From NCBI GenBank assembly GCA_025453925.1, contig JALOPK010000041.1, positions 1 through 14,979 on the forward strand: DNA of 14,979 nucleotides, written 5' to 3'. The notes below the pieces were generated by a model. That model searched no databases and was not told the DNA's origin. It saw only the letters and a program-made list of their open reading frames with translations. Shown here one piece after another: positions 3,901 through 14,079 of this stretch; position 1 is the first letter of the stretch, and each line of letters begins with the position of its first letter. Source of the stretch: Candidatus Eiseniibacteriota bacterium (GTDB lineage Bacteria > JAFGKV01). Made by a program: the position numbers and the translations under genes.

Positions 3901-4235
3901 AGGCACCTGGCGCTATCGCCCCGCCACTCTCCCGAGACGCCGCCCCCGAGAAGGATCTCTTCGGGACTGAGCCGGTAGGTACCCCATGCCGCCCGCAGCA
4001 TGAACTCGTCGCCCCATGCTATGACATTGGATCGGAGGGTGACCGCGCCGGAGCGAAGGTCCGAGCTGGACTCGTCGGCACGGTACTGGATGCCCGGTGA
4101 TCCTCGGGCAGGGAGAAGGGCGATGATCAGGGCGGCGATTCGGGCCGGGCCGCAGAGCAAAGAGGACCGGCCGCACGGTACACGGGTGCCGGCAGTACGA
4201 ACAGGCGTCGGACTCGATCCTCTCGCGGTGCTCAC
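918..4235 (-). CDS. lptD: LPS-assembly protein LptD (OstA), outer-membrane beta-barrel
   Basis: LptD inserts lipopolysaccharide into the outer leaflet of the outer membrane, receiving it from LptA. The start is GTG at 4235, overlapping the upstream stop as GTGA. No ribosome site is visible, so translation probably depends on coupling. Residues 31-46 form a hydrophobic signal sequence after a basic N-terminus. Residues about 60-480 are beta-rich OstA/LptA-like jelly-roll material. The LptD hallmark follows: TSCDMDHPHFY at about 494-504, VPVLYLPYF at 530-538 and SGFLTP at 548-553, then the barrel to 1105, rich in alternating aromatic strands. At 1105 residues it is much longer than the enterobacterial protein (about 784), mostly because of an extended N-terminal region. 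The lone hallmark cysteine and the cysteine pattern do not reproduce the four-cysteine disulfide arrangement of E. coli LptD. No lptE is visible nearby. Confidence 0.92.
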   Translation of the reverse strand: MSTARGSSPTPVRTAGTRVPCGRSSLLCGPARIAALIIALLPARGSPGIQYRADESSSDLRSGAVTLRSNVIAWGDEFMLRAAWGTYRLSPEEILLGGGVSGEWRGDSARCLTARIVSLDSLVELAGGVFLATEDGSVLRCARLVYRERTERVLLSGPVSLADSSGLYHARADTGWYERTSDRMHLARQCTLFIQSPPYESIRVASDSTVMNRSEGSITARGSVSILGPDLRGSCQSLTFLSGDDRVVLAGEPSLEGRSIRCHAQRIVLQRRGGEVRQIVLEGDAWAAQVGASPADSTWDQAWGDRMVVWVSNGEPSDLIVTGSATAHHRIVDASGAQLGTNRAEGDSIILGMGEDALRSVRITGSARGSYLPQTPGSDLPGDSLDYSSQTLSYSEDSGVLVMDGGSTLTSGSARLTSETVRFSPTTRDMVAEGGAVLRDGHQEIKGEVMTFDVDRRQGVVRKGFTQFEEAFSLGERVARIDNRRLSISEGRFTSCDMDHPHFYITSPRMRVELDNKVVARSLVLWIHDVPVLYLPYFVFPIRRDRHSGFLTPSFSVRNILGLQGSRASVTGLGYYVVLGDYADAEVSLDWKEGLGWTVNGLANYALRYRIPSGSLASSYARREGTTQWTLRQRHEQVLPRGWRLTANINATRSRSFIDQETWDAEDRLDLRAGLNSDITFAKTLAGWGARASLRRDQQWITSAIGDSSSTQETVTSTLPEVAVSRPSKRIFASGLRARWYQEIYASLSSTFKNRIVAGSGAAEGAATGTQHTVQLSWQLPKLLGKFTVSPRAIYNETWIHRGATPSEGERLTNDRYGVLHGIGITTSTKLYGLWSPPIPWDVTLRHVASPTIGFSYTPDWFFHGWDFAAGRFSDGDDDPYAASGFGSAYAKSRRLTFGLGNVFQLKTRKGETTVKNDNLANLNFTTGYDLEKRGEEENPWSPLGSSLTLSPGRGWSWSLGTSHDPNRSLEFVSATSTLTARLNGGWNRPPFRGHGGAVASAFRGTWGISATHSYSHRRGNTDEPQTLRLDLNISPTQGWDVRAWVNYDLAGHTAMNKSLSLVRDLHCWQADFSWYQAANQWHYLLRVFVRAYPQSLFVKHEERG
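919..959. terminator. Interrupted hairpin at the convergent junction of the small gene and lptD
   Basis: TACCCG (919-924) pairs with CGGGTA (954-959), and CGCTCTTC (925-932) pairs with GAAGAGCG (942-949). This leaves a 9-base loop and a single 4-base bulge (950-953), for 14 base pairs in all. The structure starts 18 bases after the small-gene stop and covers the last codons and most of the stop codon of lptD, so it could end transcripts from both sides. There is no T-run on either strand, so it would be a U-less hairpin or a 3'-end protector rather than a classical intrinsic terminator. Confidence 0.5.
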
Positions 4236-5842
4236 CGGGTGCGAGTGTGCAGGGGAACCGCCAGGCCGTTGGATATGGTGTACAGCCGGACATCGCCGGC
4301 CGCGTCGTCGTCACGCCAACTGAGAATCCCCGAAACCCCTTCATACGGGCCACGTTCCGCAAGATTCCGTCGAAGCTCTTCGCGGGAGGAAACGGCACGA
4401 GACACCTCCTCCCACACTACCGACGCCAGGTCGAATCCCAGTGACGCATAGTGGTCAGGGTCCTTCCGGTATACGTCATGGTAACGAGCCGCGAAGAGCC
4501 GTGCAGCGTGCGGATCCCTGCCCATGCCGACCACGTCGGCGAAGACCACTCCTTCCACGAGCCGCCCACCTTCGGCGATGACGTCGGGGAGGCCCCATCC
4601 ACTGGTTCCAAGGATCTGACATTCGAGGTCGTAGAAGGCGATCTGACGCGCGATTTGCGTGATCTCCCGTGGTTCTCCAGGCACGAAAAGGGCCTGAGGC
4701 GCTGCCCGCTTCAGGTTCACGATCTGATCCCGGAAGTTGGTGTCGCGGCCCTCGGCGTATCGCTCGAGGGCGACCACATCACCCCCCAGACCCAACACTT
4801 GATCCCGAAACGCCTCCATCGCTCTCTCCCCGGCGGCGTGGGACGGGTAGAGCACCGCGAATCGGGAGAGTCCGCCGTCCACCATACCGTATCTGGCAAC
4901 GGCCTTCGCCTCGGCCTGGCGGGGTGCCGAACTCTGCAGGACCCATGGCCCGAGGCGGCTCAACCCGGTTGGAGCGCTGAGAGGCATCAGGAGGGGAAGC
5001 TCGATCTGGTTCGCCGAAACCGCGGCCCCAGTCGCCGCCCGACTCTCCAGGGGCCCGATGGCGGCGATGACGTCGGGAGCAGAGGCTAATCTCCCGATGG
5101 CACGAACCGCGTCGACCGGGTCCGACCCGGTATCTTCCACCCGAAGCGCCAGCACCATAGAGTCACCGATGGCCAGCGCCGCACCGTTCCGCAGACTGGC
5201 ACCATACTCGGCGTACTCGCCGCTGAGGGGCACTACCAGCCCGAGAGTGCGACCGCTCCGTTCGAGACAGCGAACCACCCTGCGGCTCAGATCGGCCCGT
5301 TGCGCTTCTCGCCCCGGATCGCCGGCATGCCCGGCCCGTGAGAGAGTTGCGGAGGCGGCACGGCAGCGGCCGGCCTCCAGGAGCGACGACGCGGCATCCA
5401 GCAACAGGGGGGAACCGTCCAGTGGCTCCGTGACTCGCTCGATCCGTGACCACGGGGTGCCGCTCTCGGAAGCGGCCGTAACCGCTTTGCCGATGTGGGA
5501 GCGCAGTTGTTGGGCGATCCACGGTGACGGCGAACCGGCGGTGGCGCAGGCCACCAGCGCCTCCAGGGCCTCCTCGGAGCTCCCTCGCTCCCGATGGGTC
5601 AGATACAATTCCCACTGTGCCTCAGCGCGAAGCGTGGGTGACGCGTGTGACGCCGCAACCCGTTCCAGCTCCCGGGCCGCAGCCTCGTGGTCGTTCGCCT
5701 CCCTTAGGCGCACCGCCTGCGCGAGGCTGTCGGGCGCCGCGCGGGAAGGGACGGGCTGCAATCGAGCGCCGGACGAGCACGCGATCCCAACGATGATACC
5801 CAGGGCCAGCGGTCTCGCCCGCCGGATGTGTGCTGACGTCAT
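4232..5842 (-). CDS. Probable lipoprotein: helical TPR-like domain plus periplasmic binding fold (LpoA/LivK-like)
   Basis: I place the start at ATG 5842 (536 aa), not the in-frame ATG at 5902. It has GGAGG at 5850-5854 with 7-base spacing, it overlaps the secA stop as ATGA, and it begins directly with a signal sequence (RRAR then a hydrophobic core) ending in a plausible though imperfect lipobox, GIAC, with Cys22. Residues about 38-110 are TPR-like helices (repeated AA/LE patterns, e.g. EAAARELERVAAS and SSEEALEALVA). From about 199 (TLGLVVPLSGEYAEYG) to 525 it is a type-1 periplasmic binding fold of the branched-chain amino-acid receptor family. This architecture is that of LpoA, the penicillin-binding-protein activator, but also of free-standing receptors. 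The ligand or partner is unknown. Its position between secA and lptD suggests an envelope-assembly role (inference). Confidence 0.85.
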   Translation of the reverse strand: MTSAHIRRARPLALGIIVGIACSSGARLQPVPSRAAPDSLAQAVRLREANDHEAAARELERVAASHASPTLRAEAQWELYLTHRERGSSEEALEALVACATAGSPSPWIAQQLRSHIGKAVTAASESGTPWSRIERVTEPLDGSPLLLDAASSLLEAGRCRAASATLSRAGHAGDPGREAQRADLSRRVVRCLERSGRTLGLVVPLSGEYAEYGASLRNGAALAIGDSMVLALRVEDTGSDPVDAVRAIGRLASAPDVIAAIGPLESRAATGAAVSANQIELPLLMPLSAPTGLSRLGPWVLQSSAPRQAEAKAVARYGMVDGGLSRFAVLYPSHAAGERAMEAFRDQVLGLGGDVVALERYAEGRDTNFRDQIVNLKRAAPQALFVPGEPREITQIARQIAFYDLECQILGTSGWGLPDVIAEGGRLVEGVVFADVVGMGRDPHAARLFAARYHDVYRKDPDHYASLGFDLASVVWEEVSRAVSSREELRRNLAERGPYEGVSGILSWRDDDAAGDVRLYTISNGLAVPLHTRTR

Positions 5843-8800
5843 ACCGTTTCCTCCGTCTGGCCATGGCAGCGCTTGTACTTCTTCCCGCTCCCGCACGGAC
5901 ATGGATCATTGCGGCCCACACGCTCCTTCCGTACCGTCGCGGGCGCCTCGGACGCCGCCCGCGATCCGTCCACGGATGGATGGTGTGCCATCAGGCGCGG
6001 GGGGCGCCGCTCGGGCACGGGAGTTGCCGACACCAGCTCCGCCTTGAAGGCGGTCTCCACGATCTGCTGATCGATCTCATCCAGGAGTTGAACGAACATC
6101 TGGAACGCATCCTGCTTGTACTCCAGGAGCGGGTCCTTCTGCCCGTAGGCCCGCAAACCGACGCCGGCCTTGAGCTGATCAAGCTCATAGAGGTGATCGC
6201 GCCACCGTTCATCTATCACACGGAGCGTGACCAGCTTCTCCAGATGCCGCAATGTTTCGGCGCCGAGCTGCTGCTCGCGATGCTCATACGCCGCCCGCGT
6301 CTCATCCTGGACGAGCGCGGCGAGGTCATTGCGGCCCAAGTCGCGGAGCGCGGCGTCGTCCCTGCCGAGATCCAGAAGGAAGAACCGGGCCAGGTCGGTG
6401 CGCAGGCCAGAGAGGTTCCAGTCAGCCGGGTATGCCTCGTCCGGACAGTGCTGATCGAGCAGGCGTCCGGCGAGGACCGAAACCAAATCGAAGAACACCG
6501 CCCGCAGATCGCCATCCTCCAGCGCAGCCGCCCGACGGGCGTAGATCACCTCGCGCTGCTGGTTCATGACATTGTCGTACTCGAGCAGATGCTTGCGTAT
6601 GTCGAAGTTGTGCGCCTCGACTCGTTTCTGAGCCGTCTGGATGGCGCGCGTCACCAGACCATGCTCGATGGCTTCGCCTTCTTTTGCACCCATGCGGTCC
6701 ATGATGGAGGCAACGCGGTCCGAGCCGAACAGACGCATCAGGTCGTCTTCGAGCGCGAGGAAGAAGCGAGACGATCCCGGATCGCCCTGGCGGCCGCTTC
6801 GTCCGCGAAGCTGGCGGTCGATCCGCCGGGCTTCGTGGCGCTCCGTCCCCAGAATGTGGAGGCCGCACGGCATGTCTTGCCGGCACTGCGCGACGCTCCA
6901 ACCCTCAGGAATCCCGTCACCGTGGTCGCTCCCCCATTCCGGAGAGGGATTCAGCGAGCAGCGGGAGCACTTGACCACGCCGGGCCCCAGCTTGATGTCG
7001 GTTCCGCGGCCCGCCATGTTGGTGGCAATGGTCACGACGCCGGGTTGTCCGGCTTGCGACACGATCTGCGCTTCCTGCTGGTGGTACTTCGCGTTCAACA
7101 CCGAGTGTCTGATCCCCTGGCGCTTCAGGAGTCTGCTGAGGGTCTCGGAGACTTCGACACTCACCGTGCCCACCAGCACCGGCCGGCCCCGTTCATGCTG
7201 CCGCACGATCTCGTCGATCACCGCGCCGTACTTCTCGCGACGGGTCTTGTAGACGACGTCATCGTAGTCCTGACGGCGGACCGACTCATTGGTGGGTATC
7301 ATGACCACGTCGAGCTTGTAGATCTCATGAAACTCCGGCGCCTCGGTCTCGGCGGTGCCCGTCATGCCCGCAAGCTTGCGATACAGTCGGAAGTAGTTCT
7401 GGAGCGTGATGGTCGCGAGGGTCTGCGTCTCCTGCTCGATCTGGACCCCCTCCTTCGCCTCCAGTGCGGAATGGAGCCCGTCGGAGTACCGGCGGCCCGG
7501 CATGAGTCTGCCTGTGAACTCATCGACGATGAGTACCTTGCCCTCCTGCACGACATACTCCACGTCGCGCTCGAACAGGCTGTACGCCTTGAGGAGTTGG
7601 CCGATGTTATGGATGCGCTCGTTGGTGACGGCGTAGTCCCGCATCAGCTGCTGCTTCTTGACTGCGCGCTCCCCCGGGGTCAGTCCGGGCTCGGTATCCA
7701 CCGCCTGGAGCTCCTCACTGAGATCGGGAAGCACGAAGAGGGAATGGTCGGTGGGGGAGAAATGCTCTCTCCCCTTGTCCGTCAGGTCGACGGAATGGCC
7801 CTTCTCGTCAATGGCGAAGTAGAGCTCCTCGTCCAGCTCTCCGAGGCGCTTGTCGCGCATAAAGTCGGCCTCGACCCGGTTGATCGATTTCTGAACTCCG
7901 GGCTCTTTCACCAACTTGAGGAACCGCTTGTTCTTCGGGGCGCCACGCTGGACCTGAAGCAACCGCGTCGCGCTCTCGTACTCCTTGCCTTCCTCCCGCA
8001 TCCGCACCGCCTCGGCCAGCAGGTCGTTCACCAGAGCGGTCTGCACTCTCATCAGCCGTTCCACCGGCGACTTCCACTCGTGGAAACGATGCAGGGAGTG
8101 TGACACCGGACCCGATATGATGAGCGGCGTCCGGGCCTCGTCGATCAGCACCGAGTCGACCTCATCAACGATGGCGTAGTAATGCCCCCGCTGGACCCGA
8201 TCCTCGGCCCGCACCGACATGTTGTCGCGGAGATAGTCGAATCCGAACTCGTTGTTCGTCCCGTAGGTGATGTCGGCGCAATACTGGGGCTTGCGCTGCT
8301 CCGGCATCATGTCGTGCTGGATGCAGCCCACCGACAGCCCGAGGGACTCATAGACCTTACCCATCCACTCCGAGTCGCGCCGGGCGAGGTAGTCGTTCAC
8401 CGTCACCAGGTGAACGCCTTTGCCGACCAGCGCGTTCAAGTACAGAGGCAGCGTCGCGACCAGCGTCTTGCCCTCTCCCGTCGCCATTTCGGCGACTCTT
8501 CCCTCGTGAAGGACGATGGCGCCGACCAATTGCACATCGAAGGGGACCATGTCCCAGGAAATCGGGACATCGGTGACTTCCCAGCTCTTCCCCACCAGCC
8601 TGCGGCAGGCCTCCTTCACGAAGGCGAAGGCCTCTGGAAGGATCTCATCCAGAATCTCAGTCTCCCGATCAGGATTGTCGCGCAGGTGGGATTGCCACTG
8701 CTCGGTCTGCTGGATCATCCGCTCATCCGGCATATCGCGGAGGGTCGCGAACACCCCGTTGATCTTCTCGATCACGGGGCGCAAGCGCTTCACGTCGCGC

Positions 8801-8844
8801 TCCTGCTTTGAACCGAACACGGTCGTGAGCAGGCGGGTCAGCAT
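5839..8844 (-). CDS. secA: Preprotein translocase ATPase SecA
   Basis: SecA is the motor that drives unfolded preproteins through SecYEG. The start is ATG 8844, with AAGGAG and 7-base spacing. In the 1001 residues I see Walker A ATGEGKT (121-127), DEVDSVLIDEAR (227-238), the preprotein-binding region (about 240-385), GMTGTAETE (493-501), GRGTDIKLG (612-620), the arginine-finger stretch QLRGRSGRQGD (678-688), the helical scaffold with HLLEYDNVMNQQR (752-764), and a SEC-C zinc motif with C982, C984, C993 and H994. All motor motifs look intact. The preprotein-binding region carries the long PKNK-containing insertion that I associate with FCB bacteria. Unusual is a 35-residue insertion after GRGTDIKLG with four cysteines at 626, 629, 654 and 660. 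Its stop overlaps the next gene (ATGA). It follows the FmdB-family gene by 92 bases. Confidence 0.97.
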   Translation of the reverse strand: MLTRLLTTVFGSKQERDVKRLRPVIEKINGVFATLRDMPDERMIQQTEQWQSHLRDNPDRETEILDEILPEAFAFVKEACRRLVGKSWEVTDVPISWDMVPFDVQLVGAIVLHEGRVAEMATGEGKTLVATLPLYLNALVGKGVHLVTVNDYLARRDSEWMGKVYESLGLSVGCIQHDMMPEQRKPQYCADITYGTNNEFGFDYLRDNMSVRAEDRVQRGHYYAIVDEVDSVLIDEARTPLIISGPVSHSLHRFHEWKSPVERLMRVQTALVNDLLAEAVRMREEGKEYESATRLLQVQRGAPKNKRFLKLVKEPGVQKSINRVEADFMRDKRLGELDEELYFAIDEKGHSVDLTDKGREHFSPTDHSLFVLPDLSEELQAVDTEPGLTPGERAVKKQQLMRDYAVTNERIHNIGQLLKAYSLFERDVEYVVQEGKVLIVDEFTGRLMPGRRYSDGLHSALEAKEGVQIEQETQTLATITLQNYFRLYRKLAGMTGTAETEAPEFHEIYKLDVVMIPTNESVRRQDYDDVVYKTRREKYGAVIDEIVRQHERGRPVLVGTVSVEVSETLSRLLKRQGIRHSVLNAKYHQQEAQIVSQAGQPGVVTIATNMAGRGTDIKLGPGVVKCSRCSLNPSPEWGSDHGDGIPEGWSVAQCRQDMPCGLHILGTERHEARRIDRQLRGRSGRQGDPGSSRFFLALEDDLMRLFGSDRVASIMDRMGAKEGEAIEHGLVTRAIQTAQKRVEAHNFDIRKHLLEYDNVMNQQREVIYARRAAALEDGDLRAVFFDLVSVLAGRLLDQHCPDEAYPADWNLSGLRTDLARFFLLDLGRDDAALRDLGRNDLAALVQDETRAAYEHREQQLGAETLRHLEKLVTLRVIDERWRDHLYELDQLKAGVGLRAYGQKDPLLEYKQDAFQMFVQLLDEIDQQIVETAFKAELVSATPVPERRPPRLMAHHPSVDGSRAASEAPATVRKERVGRNDPCPCGSGKKYKRCHGQTEETV

Positions 8845-8936: not shown

Positions 8937-9302
8937 TTAGGCGAGATCGTCGTCGTCGCCGGTCTGTCCCCCCTCGCTCTCCCGGGCGGCAGCGTCCTCC
9001 ATCTCGTCCACCATGCCATCGAAGTCATCGCCGGCCTCCTCGCCGAGACCCTGGCCCATCTTGCGGGCCCAGCGTGCAATGCTCTTCGGGTCGTTCTCGT
9101 CGACTCCCGCCAGCGATGTCGGATCCAGCATGCGCTCCATCCGGTCTTCCTCGCCGAGGAGATGGCGAACCCGAGACATCAACCGATCGAGTTCGTCACC
9201 GCCGCACCGTGCGCAGCGAAGTGCGGGAGCATGAATGCTCACGCCGACCAGGAAGGTGTTCACCTTGCCACACTGCCGGCACTTGTACTCATACAAAGGC
9301 AT
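8937..9302 (-). CDS. FmdB-family zinc-ribbon protein with acidic tail
   Basis: The 121-residue protein begins MPLYEYKC, the signature start of the FmdB/CxxC_CXXC_SSSS family. Two CxxC pairs, C8/C11 and C30/C33, form the zinc ribbon. The rest is unlike the short family members: residues 40-80 are helical and charged, and the last 35 are strongly acidic, ending DDDDLA. Members are small regulatory or chaperone-like proteins of uncertain function; the name comes from a formamide-induced gene and proves nothing here. GGAGGGAGG at 9307-9315 is an excellent ribosome site. The gene starts inside the last codons of the small frame at 9289-9486 and is followed by secA, so the two may be co-expressed. 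No signal peptide is present; it should be cytoplasmic. Confidence 0.85.
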   Translation of the reverse strand: MPLYEYKCRQCGKVNTFLVGVSIHAPALRCARCGGDELDRLMSRVRHLLGEEDRMERMLDPTSLAGVDENDPKSIARWARKMGQGLGEEAGDDFDGMVDEMEDAAARESEGGQTGDDDDLA

Positions 9303-9495: not shown

Positions 9496-11358
9496 CTATC
9501 CTCCGATGCAGTACAGCCACCCGGTCATGTCCCCGAAATAGACGCGCTCGGTCGCGAGGGCAGGCGTGGAGTAGATCCGCGATTCAGTGTCAAACGCCCA
9601 CTTCTTCCTCCCACTGACCGAGAAGGAGTAGAGCCGGCCATCGTAGCTTCCGACAAGGACCGAACCGTCAACGACGACGGGCGACGATCGCACATCGGCT
9701 CCGGTGGCGTATCTCCACACCTCGCGGTGGTCGGTCAACGACACGCAGAGGACATCCCCGCCCTTGCATCCGAAAAACAGGTGGCCGTCGGCCACGGCCG
9801 GCGAGGAGTACACCGGCTCGTACTTCGCGCGCCACTCCTGCGTGCCATCGCGCTGCCCGAGCTGATACAGGGTGCCGTCGTTGGTGGCAAACAACACCGT
9901 GCTGTCAGGGCCGGGAGCGGCCGTGGTGTAGACCGCACCTGCCACGGGGACCGTCCACAGTTTCGCGCCCGTCTTGACATCGACGCAGTAGAAATGCCGG
10001 TCAATGCTGCCGATGAACAGGCGCGAGCCGACGATCAAGGGCCGCGCCCAGACTTCCGCGCCGGTCTCCAGACGCCACCGGAGAACGCCTGACCGGGTAT
10101 CCCAGGCGTACACTCGCCCATCCTTGCAGCCGCAGTATGCAGTGGCCTCATGGATCAGGGGACTGGCGCCGATGCTCGCGCCGACGCGTTGCTTCCAGAT
10201 GCAGCGGCCCGCATGTCGGTCGACACAGTAGAAGGTGCTGTCATAGCTGCCGAAATACACGTTCCCCGCGTCCACTGCGGGAGAAGACCCGATCCCTCCG
10301 CCGGACTTGAACTTCCAGAGGACCTCGCCGCTGGACGTCAGGAGGCAGTAGAGGTGGTGATCCTTGCTGCCTACGTACACCTTCATGCCGGCGAGAGCGG
10401 GCGACGATGAGAAGTTCGAGCCACCGATTCGCTGCTTCCAGACGAGGGTCGACGGCGCGACGGATGCTACGGCTGCGGAATCCCCGGCCGCGAGGTCGGC
10501 GTCCGCTTCACTCCCCGTGGAATCGAACAGGGCGACCGACTCGGCCGGCGTCGCGGCGGAATCGCGGGGCGATTGCTGACTCGCCCCAAGGCTCGAATCC
10601 CGCGCCTCAGAGGCCTGGGGGATTGCGGGTGGTCGTGGTCGGCGCTGCCACGGTGTGGCAAACGTCAGAACCGCGGCAGCAGCGCAGATCGCCAGGACCG
10701 CGGGGACGATGACTTTCCATCGTGGCGGCCGTGCAACCTTACTTGCCTTGACCTCCGCCGTCGGTCTGACCAGACGGCCGAAACGGGCCGCGCAGTAGAG
10801 TTGCGGCACCGAGCTCCCCGCGATTCGCTTCTCGACGAGTTCAGCGCTCTCATCCCCGGCCGAGGATAGAAGCACGCCCAGCAACTCAGGGGGTGGAATC
10901 TCCTCCAGGACTCCGAGGGACAGCGTCACCAGGACGTCACCCGGACCGATGGCGTAGTTCGTCGCCGTGACGGCCTCGCCGTGCTTGACGCCGGGGACAT
11001 GCCACCGTGCGTCCCTGGCCGCCGCGCACCGGATCTGCAGGTCCCCCGAGTAGGCGGCCTCGATCATTCGCCCCTTCCGAAGGGCCACCGCGGCCGAGAC
11101 CTTCACGCCTCCGTGGACGGTCATGGGTTCGACGGCCGCCAGGGCATGTCGCACGATCGCCGAAGCGCCCTGGCGCCACGCGTCGGGATCCGCAACAAGC
11201 CCCAGCAGAGTCGAGACTACGCGGGACGAAATCTCACCAGCATGGTGCCCCTGGGCCGCCACTGCAACGAACTGCGCGAGCTCGCCGCTTCTGGGATCGA
11301 CCTCGGGAAACGCCAGCACGACGCCGTCGTAGCCCGAGGCGCGAACGACGCGGAGCAT
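9496..11358 (-). CDS. Membrane protein: degenerate PP2C-like phosphatase domain, one TM helix, 8-bladed PQQ-type beta-propeller
   Basis: I do not know a characterised protein with this layout. Residues 25-200 follow a PP2C fold. VAAQGHHAGEISS (33-45) matches the VADGMGGHxAGEVAS motif with the aspartate and its glycine replaced and two residues missing. YSGDLQIR (103-110) matches VGDSRAY and keeps its aspartate. GDVLVTLSLGVLEEI (140-154) matches the GDxLLLCSDGLTD motif with Asp changed to Leu148. Two of the three main metal ligands are gone, so it should be a pseudophosphatase. Residues about 214-235 form a transmembrane helix, then an Ala/Ser/Asp-rich linker. From 301 there are eight repeats of about 40 residues, each with an SSPAV-like turn (318, 358, 398, 438, 479, 518, 558, 597), and most with a YVG/YFG strand and G-x-W or G-x-L end. 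The propeller should be periplasmic and the N-terminal domain cytoplasmic. It starts 6 bases after the ppdK stop with no visible ribosome site, so coupling is likely. Confidence 0.85.
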   Translation of the reverse strand: MLRVVRASGYDGVVLAFPEVDPRSGELAQFVAVAAQGHHAGEISSRVVSTLLGLVADPDAWRQGASAIVRHALAAVEPMTVHGGVKVSAAVALRKGRMIEAAYSGDLQIRCAAARDARWHVPGVKHGEAVTATNYAIGPGDVLVTLSLGVLEEIPPPELLGVLLSSAGDESAELVEKRIAGSSVPQLYCAARFGRLVRPTAEVKASKVARPPRWKVIVPAVLAICAAAAVLTFATPWQRRPRPPAIPQASEARDSSLGASQQSPRDSAATPAESVALFDSTGSEADADLAAGDSAAVASVAPSTLVWKQRIGGSNFSSSPALAGMKVYVGSKDHHLYCLLTSSGEVLWKFKSGGGIGSSPAVDAGNVYFGSYDSTFYCVDRHAGRCIWKQRVGASIGASPLIHEATAYCGCKDGRVYAWDTRSGVLRWRLETGAEVWARPLIVGSRLFIGSIDRHFYCVDVKTGAKLWTVPVAGAVYTTAAPGPDSTVLFATNDGTLYQLGQRDGTQEWRAKYEPVYSSPAVADGHLFFGCKGGDVLCVSLTDHREVWRYATGADVRSSPVVVDGSVLVGSYDGRLYSFSVSGRKKWAFDTESRIYSTPALATERVYFGDMTGWLYCIGG

Positions 11359-11364
11359 GTTGGG

Positions 11365-14079
11365 TCAGTTGCGTGGAGCCAACGCCGCACGGGCCGCAGC
11401 CAGGCGAGCCACCGGGACCCTGAACGGCGAGCAGCTCACATAGTTCAGTCCGATCTCATGGCAGAACCCCACGGTCGCCGGGTCACCGCCGTGCTCACCG
11501 CAGATGCCGACCTTGAGGTCGGGGCGCGTCCGCCGTCCCCGCTCGACGCCGATCCTCATGAGTTCTCCGACGCCTTCCCGATCGAGGCTCTCGAACGGAT
11601 CGTGTGGGATGATGTCATGCTCGACGTAGTAAGGCAGGAAGCTGCCCGCATCGTCGCGGGAGATGCCCAGCGTGGTCTGGGTCAGGTCGTTGGTGCCGAA
11701 GGAGAAGAACTCGGCGTTTTGGGCGATCTGATCAGCGGTGATCGCCGCCCTTGGAAGCTCGATCATGGTGCCGACCAGATAGTCGAGACGCACACCCTGC
11801 TCCGCAAAGACCTCATCCGCAACCCGTCGGACGATTCGCTCCTGGTCCTGCAGCTCGCGTCGCTCGAACACGACGGGGATCATGATCTCGGGCAGGACCC
11901 GGACGCCCTCCTTGGACACGATGCAGGCAGCCTCGATGATGGCACGGGCCTGCATCGCGGTGATCTCGGGGTAGAAAATCCCGAGCCTGCACCCACGGTG
12001 ACCGAGCATGGGGTTGGACTCCCTGAGGCTCTCCACCTTCGCTTTGAGGCGGGACGCCGGGATGCCCATGTTCGTGGCAAGCTCCTGGATGCCGGCATCG
12101 CCATGGGGGAGGAATTCGTGGAGCGGCGGGTCGAGGGTTCGGATGGTCACCGGGAGGCCATCCATGGCGCGGAAGATACCGACGAAGTCCTCCCGCTGCA
12201 TCGGGAGCAACCTGGCCAGCGCTTTCTCGCGGCCGGGTGTGTCCTCTGCGACGATCATCTCCCGCATGGCGTCGATGCGATGCCCGCCGAAGAACATGTG
12301 CTCGGTGCGACAGAGCCCGATTCCCTCCGCCCCGAACGCCCGCGCGTTGCGCGACTGGTCGGGCTGGTCGGCATTCGTCCGGATGCGCAGGCTGCGGTAC
12401 TTGTCTGCCCACACCATGAGTTTCTCGTACTTCTGGTAGATCGTGGAGGCGGAGGCGAGCAGGGTTCCCTCGATGAGAACTTGCACGACCTCTGACGGCC
12501 GTGTCTTCAGCTCGCCCTGGATCACCTCGCCCGTGAACCCGTCGATGCTGACCACGTCGCCTTGCCGGATCGTCCGGTCGCCCACGAGCATGAGCGACTG
12601 TGCGTAGTCGATACGAAGCGCGCCGCATCCCGCCACGCATACTTTGCCCATCTGTCGGGCAACCAGCGCCGCGTGAGATGTCATGCCCCCACGGGCCGTC
12701 AGAATGCCCTCGGCCGCGTGCATGCCGCGGATGTCCTCGGGGCTCGTTTCGATGCGGACCAGGATGACCTTCTCGCCCTTGGCCTTCCATTGCTGCGCGT
12801 CGGAGGCATGGAACACAACTTTTCCACAGGCGGCTCCCGGCCCCGCGTTCAATCCCTTGGCAAGGAGGCGACCGCCTCGGCCGACGGCGTCGCGCTTCTC
12901 CTCGGGGTCGAAGATGGGGCGGAGAAGGTGATTGAGCTGCTCGGGGTTCACTCTGAGCAGCGCCTCCTGTTCGGAGATAAGGCCTTCCTCAGCCATCTCC
13001 GCGGCGATCCGCACCGCTGCGAAGCCCGTGCGCTTGCCCGCCCGGGTCTGGAGCATCCACAGCTTCTCATCCTGGATCGTGAACTCAACGTCCTGCATTT
13101 CCCGGTAGTGCCGTTCCAGCCGTCGGAATGTCTCGACGAGTTGCTCGAACACCTCGGGCCGCTCGCGTTGGAGATCCGCAAGGGGCAGGGGAGTGCGGGT
13201 TCCCGCGACGACATCTTCGCCCTGGGCGTTCATCAGGTACTCGCCATAGGGGTGACGCTCGCCGGTGGCCGGATCCCGCGTGAAGGCGACACCGGTTCCC
13301 GACCGGGGACCCATGTTTCCAAACACCATTGACTGCACGTTCACCGCCGTGCCCCAGTCATCGGGAATGCCGTTCAGACGGCGGTAGGCGATGGCTCGAT
13401 CATTGTTCCACGACCGGAACACCGCACTGATCGCTCCCCACATTTGCTCCCTGGGATGTTCGGGGAAGTCTTGCCCGGTGGAGGTCTTGATGGCCGCCTT
13501 GAACCGTGCCACCAGGTCCTTGAGGTCCTCGGTGGTGAGATCGAGGTCCAGAATTGCGCCGACCTCCGCCTTCTTCCGCTGGATGATGACCTCGAATGGA
13601 TCCTCTTCGTTCCTGGAGAAGGGTTTGAGGCCGAGCACGACGTCGCCGTACATCTGTACGAAGCGTCGATAACTGTCGTAGGCGAACCGCGGCTCCCCTC
13701 CCAGGTCGATGAGGCCCTGCACGGTTGCGTCGTTGAGGCCGAGGTTCAGCACCGTGTCCATCATGCCGGGCATCGACGCCCGGGCCCCGCTTCGGACGGA
13801 CACAAGAAGCGGCCGAGCCGGGTCACCGAAGCGCCGGTCCATGATCCCCTCGACTTTCTTCAGCGCTTCATCGACTTCCTGGTCGAGTCCCTCGGGATAG
13901 ACCTGGCCATGCTCGTAGAAGTGAGTGCACACTGCCGTGGAGATGGTGAACCCCGGGGGCACCGGGAGCCCCAGGCTCGTCATCTCGGCCAAGCCCGCGC
14001 CTTTCCCCCCGAGAACCTCGCGCATCTTGTCCGAACCTTCTGCCTGCCCGGCTCCAAAAAAGAACACTCGCTTCATCAT
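11365..14079 (-). CDS. ppdK: Pyruvate, phosphate dikinase
   Basis: The enzyme interconverts pyruvate, ATP and phosphate with PEP, AMP and pyrophosphate, in the cytoplasm, for gluconeogenesis or PPi-linked glycolysis. At 904 residues it is full length. The ATP-grasp part shows [20 protein letters not shown] at about 94-113 and [11 protein letters not shown] at about 287-297. The swivelling phosphohistidine domain has [12 protein letters not shown], with the catalytic His near 469 next to Thr and Ser. The PEP-binding barrel has LPEIMIPVV (about 728-736), [11 protein letters not shown] (about 794-804) and the catalytic cysteine in [10 protein letters not shown] near 859. The N-terminal signature ([10 protein letters not shown]) and [13 protein letters not shown] distinguish it from PEP synthase. 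AGGAGG lies 9 bases before ATG 14079, so I prefer that ATG to the second methionine. The propeller gene follows after 6 bases. No catalytic residue is missing. Confidence 0.96.

Follow-up and report, generated by a model that had tools for sequence, protein, structure and literature searches.

RssB binds sigma-S and ClpX through its inactive PP2C domain. It has a PP2C fold without the active-site residues and acts through protein binding (PMC7226468, PMC5468089). Degenerate metal sites on a PP2C fold are also found in the eukaryotic proteins TAB1 and PHLPP2, which still retain one metal (PMC12002173). In AfsK-type Ser/Thr kinases, a signalling domain is joined to PQQ-type repeats (PMC1262709). 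The protein described here shares something with each of these. Like RssB, it has a predicted PP2C/PPM fold that lacks the active-site residues, but RssB is soluble and begins with a receiver domain, whereas in this protein the apparently dead PP2C domain is N-terminal, tethered to the membrane and joined to a propeller. An RssB-type adaptor architecture was rejected, as the Pfam scan gave no receiver-domain match and the PP2C-like domain begins at residue 1. TAB1 and PHLPP2 carry other partner domains. AfsK has an active kinase where this protein has an inactive phosphatase fold, and an AfsK-type kinase was likewise rejected: the Pfam scan contained no kinase domain, and the score was far below the AfsK cut-off. 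The N-terminal domain has the fold of bacterial PP2C enzymes such as PstP and tPphA (Z 17-19), but it is without their aspartates at ADG and SDG, and the flap region is largely lost. The C-terminal half is an eight-bladed propeller of the PQQ_2 type, as in BamB, YxaL and PF13360, and like them it shows no sign of binding PQQ; BamB itself is a lipoprotein of the outer membrane, whereas this propeller comes after a transmembrane helix.

The gene lies in the window, the whole stretch of 14,979 nucleotides that was analysed. Three Ca. Fermentibacteria genomes from two genera were compared: that of the window (G000, 82% complete), G001 and G002. The original prediction had the coordinates right and left out the strand, which is minus. 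The 620 codons run from 11358 to 9499, with the stop codon at 9496-9498, and the start codon is well fixed since the stop-to-stop frame exceeds the ORF by just two codons. The parts of the gene are as follows:

9496..11358, minus strand: whole gene for the putative pseudo-PP2C, transmembrane and eight-bladed propeller protein (ORF of 620 amino acids plus stop; full-length homologues in G001 and G002)
10768..11358, minus strand: predicted PP2C-fold domain, residues 1-197, expected to be cytoplasmic
11251..11262, minus strand: ADG-motif position, residues 33-36 (VAAQ), aspartate absent in homologue and PP2C alignments; A35, Q36 and G37 invariant in all three homologues
11041..11046, minus strand: GD motif, G105-D106, the one metal-site aspartate retained in all three homologues
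10912..10920, minus strand: SDG-motif position, S147-L148-G149, Asp replaced by Leu
10801..10812, minus strand: DN-motif position, residues 183-186 (SVPQ), aspartate absent
10657..10713, minus strand: single transmembrane helix, residues 216-234, at the centre of the hydrophobic segment (mean Kyte-Doolittle value of 2.58 across 19 residues)
10453..10656, minus strand: disordered linker rich in Ala, Ser, Pro and acidic residues, residues 235-302 (pLDDT mostly 22-47)
9499..10452, minus strand: eight-bladed, velcro-closed PQQ_2/BamB-like beta-propeller, residues 303-620

A PP2C-like N-terminal domain had been predicted from the sequence, and the modelled structure agreed. The AlphaFold2 (AF2) model of residues 1-203 had a pLDDT of 86.2 and a pTM of 0.85. 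The matches listed when Foldseek was run with this model were PP2C/PPM-fold proteins (E down to 1.8e-10), and the nearest structures among the matches listed were tPphA, RsbX, PstP and Stp1 (Z 17-19 over 175-192 residues). VIA-align superposed the model on tPphA with a Z of 19.3 over 187 residues at 3.0 A. A profile-profile comparison against 44 genuine PP2C domains scored 42.0, higher than all 200 column-shuffled controls (maximum 33.1) and the reversed control (15.8). The HMM searches proposed with the original prediction gave a divided answer: the PQQ_2 profile matched, and no PP2C, PP2C_2 or SpoIIE match was found in Pfam for the N-terminal domains of the three homologues at E values up to 10. 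A PDB sequence search with the N-terminal domain alone also returned no PP2C match. The assignment therefore leans on structure and on profile-profile comparison, and because these two agree, a PP2C/PPM fold is well supported for the modelled domain. Separately, the segment PEVDPRTGEL (residues 18-27; window 11278-11307, minus strand) is near-invariant in the three homologues; it has no obvious counterpart among the aligned PP2C enzymes and is a candidate binding surface.

The loss of catalytic residues is well supported. The ADG aspartate is missing in all three homologues (VAAQ, VTAQ and VAAQ). It had been matched to Ala35 in the original prediction; the loss stands, but the exact partner depends on the alignment and is V33, A35 or a two-residue deletion, none of them acidic. 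As predicted, Leu148 aligns at the SDG aspartate, which is Leu in G001 and Gln in G002. To these can be added the DN aspartate, a motif left unmentioned before, which is missing in G000 and G001; G002 carries an aspartate nearby (RDPQ). The GD pair expected at 105-106 does align with the PP2C GD motif and is invariant in the three homologues. Between the GD and SDG positions there are about 40 residues, compared to about 70 in PP2C enzymes, with much of the flap and of the DHS and NxxTR motifs lost.

The ADG and SDG aspartates of PPM enzymes hold catalytic metals, and since both are absent, the domain should be inactive. It would be unable to build a normal metal centre, making it a probable pseudophosphatase. 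With D106 retained, there would still be space for a single metal, as in TAB1 and PHLPP2. Another explanation is that this is an unusual active metal phosphatase whose metal site is built from other residues. The fold, D106 and the aspartate near the DN position in G002 would allow for this, but none of the three homologues has either core aspartate (ADG or SDG), the flap region is largely lost and the PPM enzymes known so far require two or three metals (PMC12002173), so we consider it very unlikely. R6 is also invariant in the three homologues and was placed by the global alignment, with moderate confidence, on the Arg of the RxxNED motif; D11, from the same motif, is not invariant. R6 is possibly a phosphate-site Arg.

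Full-length homologues were found in G001 (62% identical from end to end) and G002 (40%), and the N-terminal domain occurs exactly once in each of the three genomes. A search of 386 genomes across Bacteria gave no convincing further match to this domain; outside Ca. Fermentibacteria it returned five matches, all weak and partial (E 1e-4 to 8e-3, about 40-80 residues). A pattern scan of GTDB, with patterns too specific for distant relatives, recovered only the two known relatives, in Candidatus Fermentibacteria MAGs. Between G000 and G001, identity was 60% in the PP2C-like domain, 30% in the linker region (198-300) and 74% in the propeller, and the corresponding dN values were 0.31, 0.85 and 0.18. 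The dN/dS ratios of about 0.20, 0.52 and 0.10 are rough because dS (1.5-1.9) is near saturation. The N-terminal domain is clearly constrained, under purifying selection. It could be proposed that a decaying or neutral N-terminal domain is carried on an otherwise functional propeller protein, since this domain changes faster than the propeller (60 vs 74% identity). Its dN is, however, 2.7 times below that of the linker, and the motifs PEVDPRTGEL and VEPMTVHGG are conserved; the selection test largely refutes decay, which is extremely unlikely. The relatives, which had been named as a check on the metal-ligand losses, lack the ADG and SDG aspartates too, and decay in a single genome was rejected because the domain is conserved and constrained. 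Conservation in two genera, although thinly sampled with three homologues known, makes this look like a working signalling or scaffold protein rather than a decayed gene.

The two halves are joined by one strongly hydrophobic segment, residues 216-234, with a mean Kyte-Doolittle hydropathy of about 2.6, close to the single helix expected at about 214-235. A single transmembrane segment is likewise present in the G001 and G002 homologues. The linker that follows the helix has a pLDDT below 50 in the AF2 model. In the window protein, positive charges flank the helix on both sides, a point against the receptor or scaffold reading favoured below. Propellers of the PQQ_2 type are usual outside the cytoplasm. 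This, together with the lack of a signal peptide ahead of the helix, suggests an N-in/C-out topology that would place the propeller in the periplasm.

The eight PQQ-type repeats reported earlier were confirmed, and the eight-bladed PQQ_2-type architecture is well supported. The sequence matched Pfam PF13360 (PQQ_2) at 145.6 bits against a cut-off of 27.6 and PF13570 at 231.2 bits. The eight blade tryptophans (307, 348, 388, 428, 468, 509, 548 and 587) are all invariant in the three homologues, and the first strand (305-310) closes the last blade as a velcro closure. The pLDDT of the propeller was mostly above 90 in AF2. In VIA-align, the designed eight-bladed protein Cake8 was nearest (Z 47.8), and BamB (Z 37-41) and YxaL were also close. 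Three known identities were considered and rejected. The TIGR03300 equivalog score of 142.8 bits is below the BamB cut-off of 285.2 bits. A BamB-type lipoprotein is not indicated: there is no lipoprotein signal or lipobox, the PP2C-like domain starts the protein and the only strongly hydrophobic segment is 216-234. A PQQ-dependent dehydrogenase was rejected at 63.6 bits against the TIGR03075 cut-off of 480, and the protein fell below the cut-off of every NCBIfam PQQ dehydrogenase family. A pqqC search gave no match in the host set, and the control genomes gave no match either. A further observation is that several blades carry a cysteine at an equivalent place, preceding the W motif as part of a YC or LC pair (C338, C378, C458, C538 and C617). 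Such cysteines are unusual in a domain outside the cytoplasm, except in an anaerobic host.

The gene sits in a conserved neighbourhood, whose main members in the window are:

11365..14079, minus strand: ppdK, pyruvate phosphate dikinase (TIGR01828, 1317 bits)
8937..9302, minus strand: FmdB-type zinc-ribbon protein, conserved downstream neighbour (TIGR02605)
5839..8844, minus strand: secA, conserved downstream neighbour (family match)

The order ppdK, this gene, fmdB and secA is common to the three genomes. An LppC-like gene follows secA in the window and in G002, and the G001 contig ends soon after secA; in the window, lptD comes next. The LppC-like gene (4232-5902, minus strand) encodes a periplasmic-binding-fold protein with an upstream helical region, scoring just above the LppC (LpoA-type) cut-off. 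From its called start, the gene shares 64 bases with secA, and the protein, whose gene adjoins lptD, is a possible cell-wall synthesis activator. SecA itself (window 5839-8844, minus strand; L031 5717-8722; L032 11204-14197) has a four-cysteine insertion, KCSRCS...QCRQDMPC in the window, directly before GLHILGTERH. The insertion is kept in the three genomes and may bind zinc.

The envelope genes secA, LppC-like and lptD raise an alternative in which the propeller is a membrane-tethered, BamB-like factor for assembly of outer-membrane proteins or the envelope and the PP2C-like domain is an anchor or Sec docking site. Of the solved structures, BamB is one of the closest (Z 37-41), and in G000 and G001 no other protein matches PQQ_2 nearly as strongly as this one. 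The score is nevertheless far under the BamB equivalog cut-off (142.8 vs 285.2 bits), the propeller is preceded by a transmembrane helix and not by a lipobox, so that it is not a lipoprotein, and the nearest structure is a designed PQQ propeller and not BamB. Purifying selection on the PP2C-like domain also speaks against this alternative, which we regard as rather unlikely.

The ppdK stop is 6 bases upstream of the gene start in the window, and the spacing is 6-9 bases in all three genomes, suggesting co-transcription of the two genes. PF03618, the usual PPDK regulator family, was not found in the three Ca. Fermentibacteria genomes, compared to matches in 3 of 14 control genomes. Both observations would suit a PPDK regulator, in which the pseudo-PP2C domain binds PPDK (perhaps phosphorylated PPDK) and couples PEP/pyruvate metabolism to a signal from the envelope. 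The link is one of adjacency only, though, and fmdB and secA are equally conserved neighbours. In addition, no homologue of the pseudo-PP2C protein was found outside Ca. Fermentibacteria. Such a regulator is quite unlikely; the position after ppdK may mean no more than that two functionally unconnected genes are transcribed together.

All three genomes encode Ser/Thr kinases and phosphatases of the SpoIIE type. Genuine PP2C_2 phosphatases were found in G001 and G002, with none seen in the 82%-complete G000. These kinases and phosphatases give the host genomes a phospho-signalling background. One of the genuine PP2C proteins in G001 (L052 1444-3087) keeps its motifs intact, and after them come a membrane helix and a long tail rich in Pro. 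Its contig also carries a Ser/Thr kinase about 2 kb away, and the protein is a natural active counterpart for comparison.

The reading we favour, at slightly better than an even chance, is a one-pass receptor or scaffold. The protein would cross the inner membrane once, with the PP2C-fold domain inside and a flexible tether holding the propeller in the periplasm. The propeller would bind a protein or polymer of the envelope, and in the cytoplasm the dead PP2C domain would serve as a protein-binding output, analogous to the inactive PP2C domain of RssB. By this analogy, the domain probably has a protein partner. That the partner is a phosphoprotein, or PPDK itself, is speculative; the phosphoprotein is suggested by the invariance of R6, whose alignment to the phosphate-site Arg is of moderate confidence. 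The roles put forward in the original prediction, periplasmic sensing, binding of a phosphoprotein and competition with a true phosphatase, are likewise hypothetical. A more specific form, a new transmembrane receptor class in which the periplasmic propeller controls a dead PP2C output that reads phosphoproteins produced by Hanks-type kinases, modified PPDK possibly being one, has a low but appreciable chance of being correct.

Each half of the protein is of a known kind, and the combination is new as far as searched. The fusion had been put forward as undescribed, and our searches are consistent with this. None of 50 PP2C-matching ORFs elsewhere, a sample into which most of the long ORFs among the matches listed were deliberately taken, carried a propeller when tested with the model of the window propeller only, and no PP2C-propeller fusion was found in the literature searched. 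Sensor-propeller kinases are known in bacteria, and pseudophosphatases are known in both bacteria and eukaryotes; a membrane receptor with a dead PP2C domain as its inner half was not found in the searches made. The gene is conserved and uncharacterised, in a phylum represented here by metagenome-assembled genomes only. Should the domain serve as an output that binds proteins or phosphoproteins, the PP2C fold would have been turned into a bacterial transmembrane signalling adaptor, and the protein would offer a compact test of how a pseudophosphatase works.
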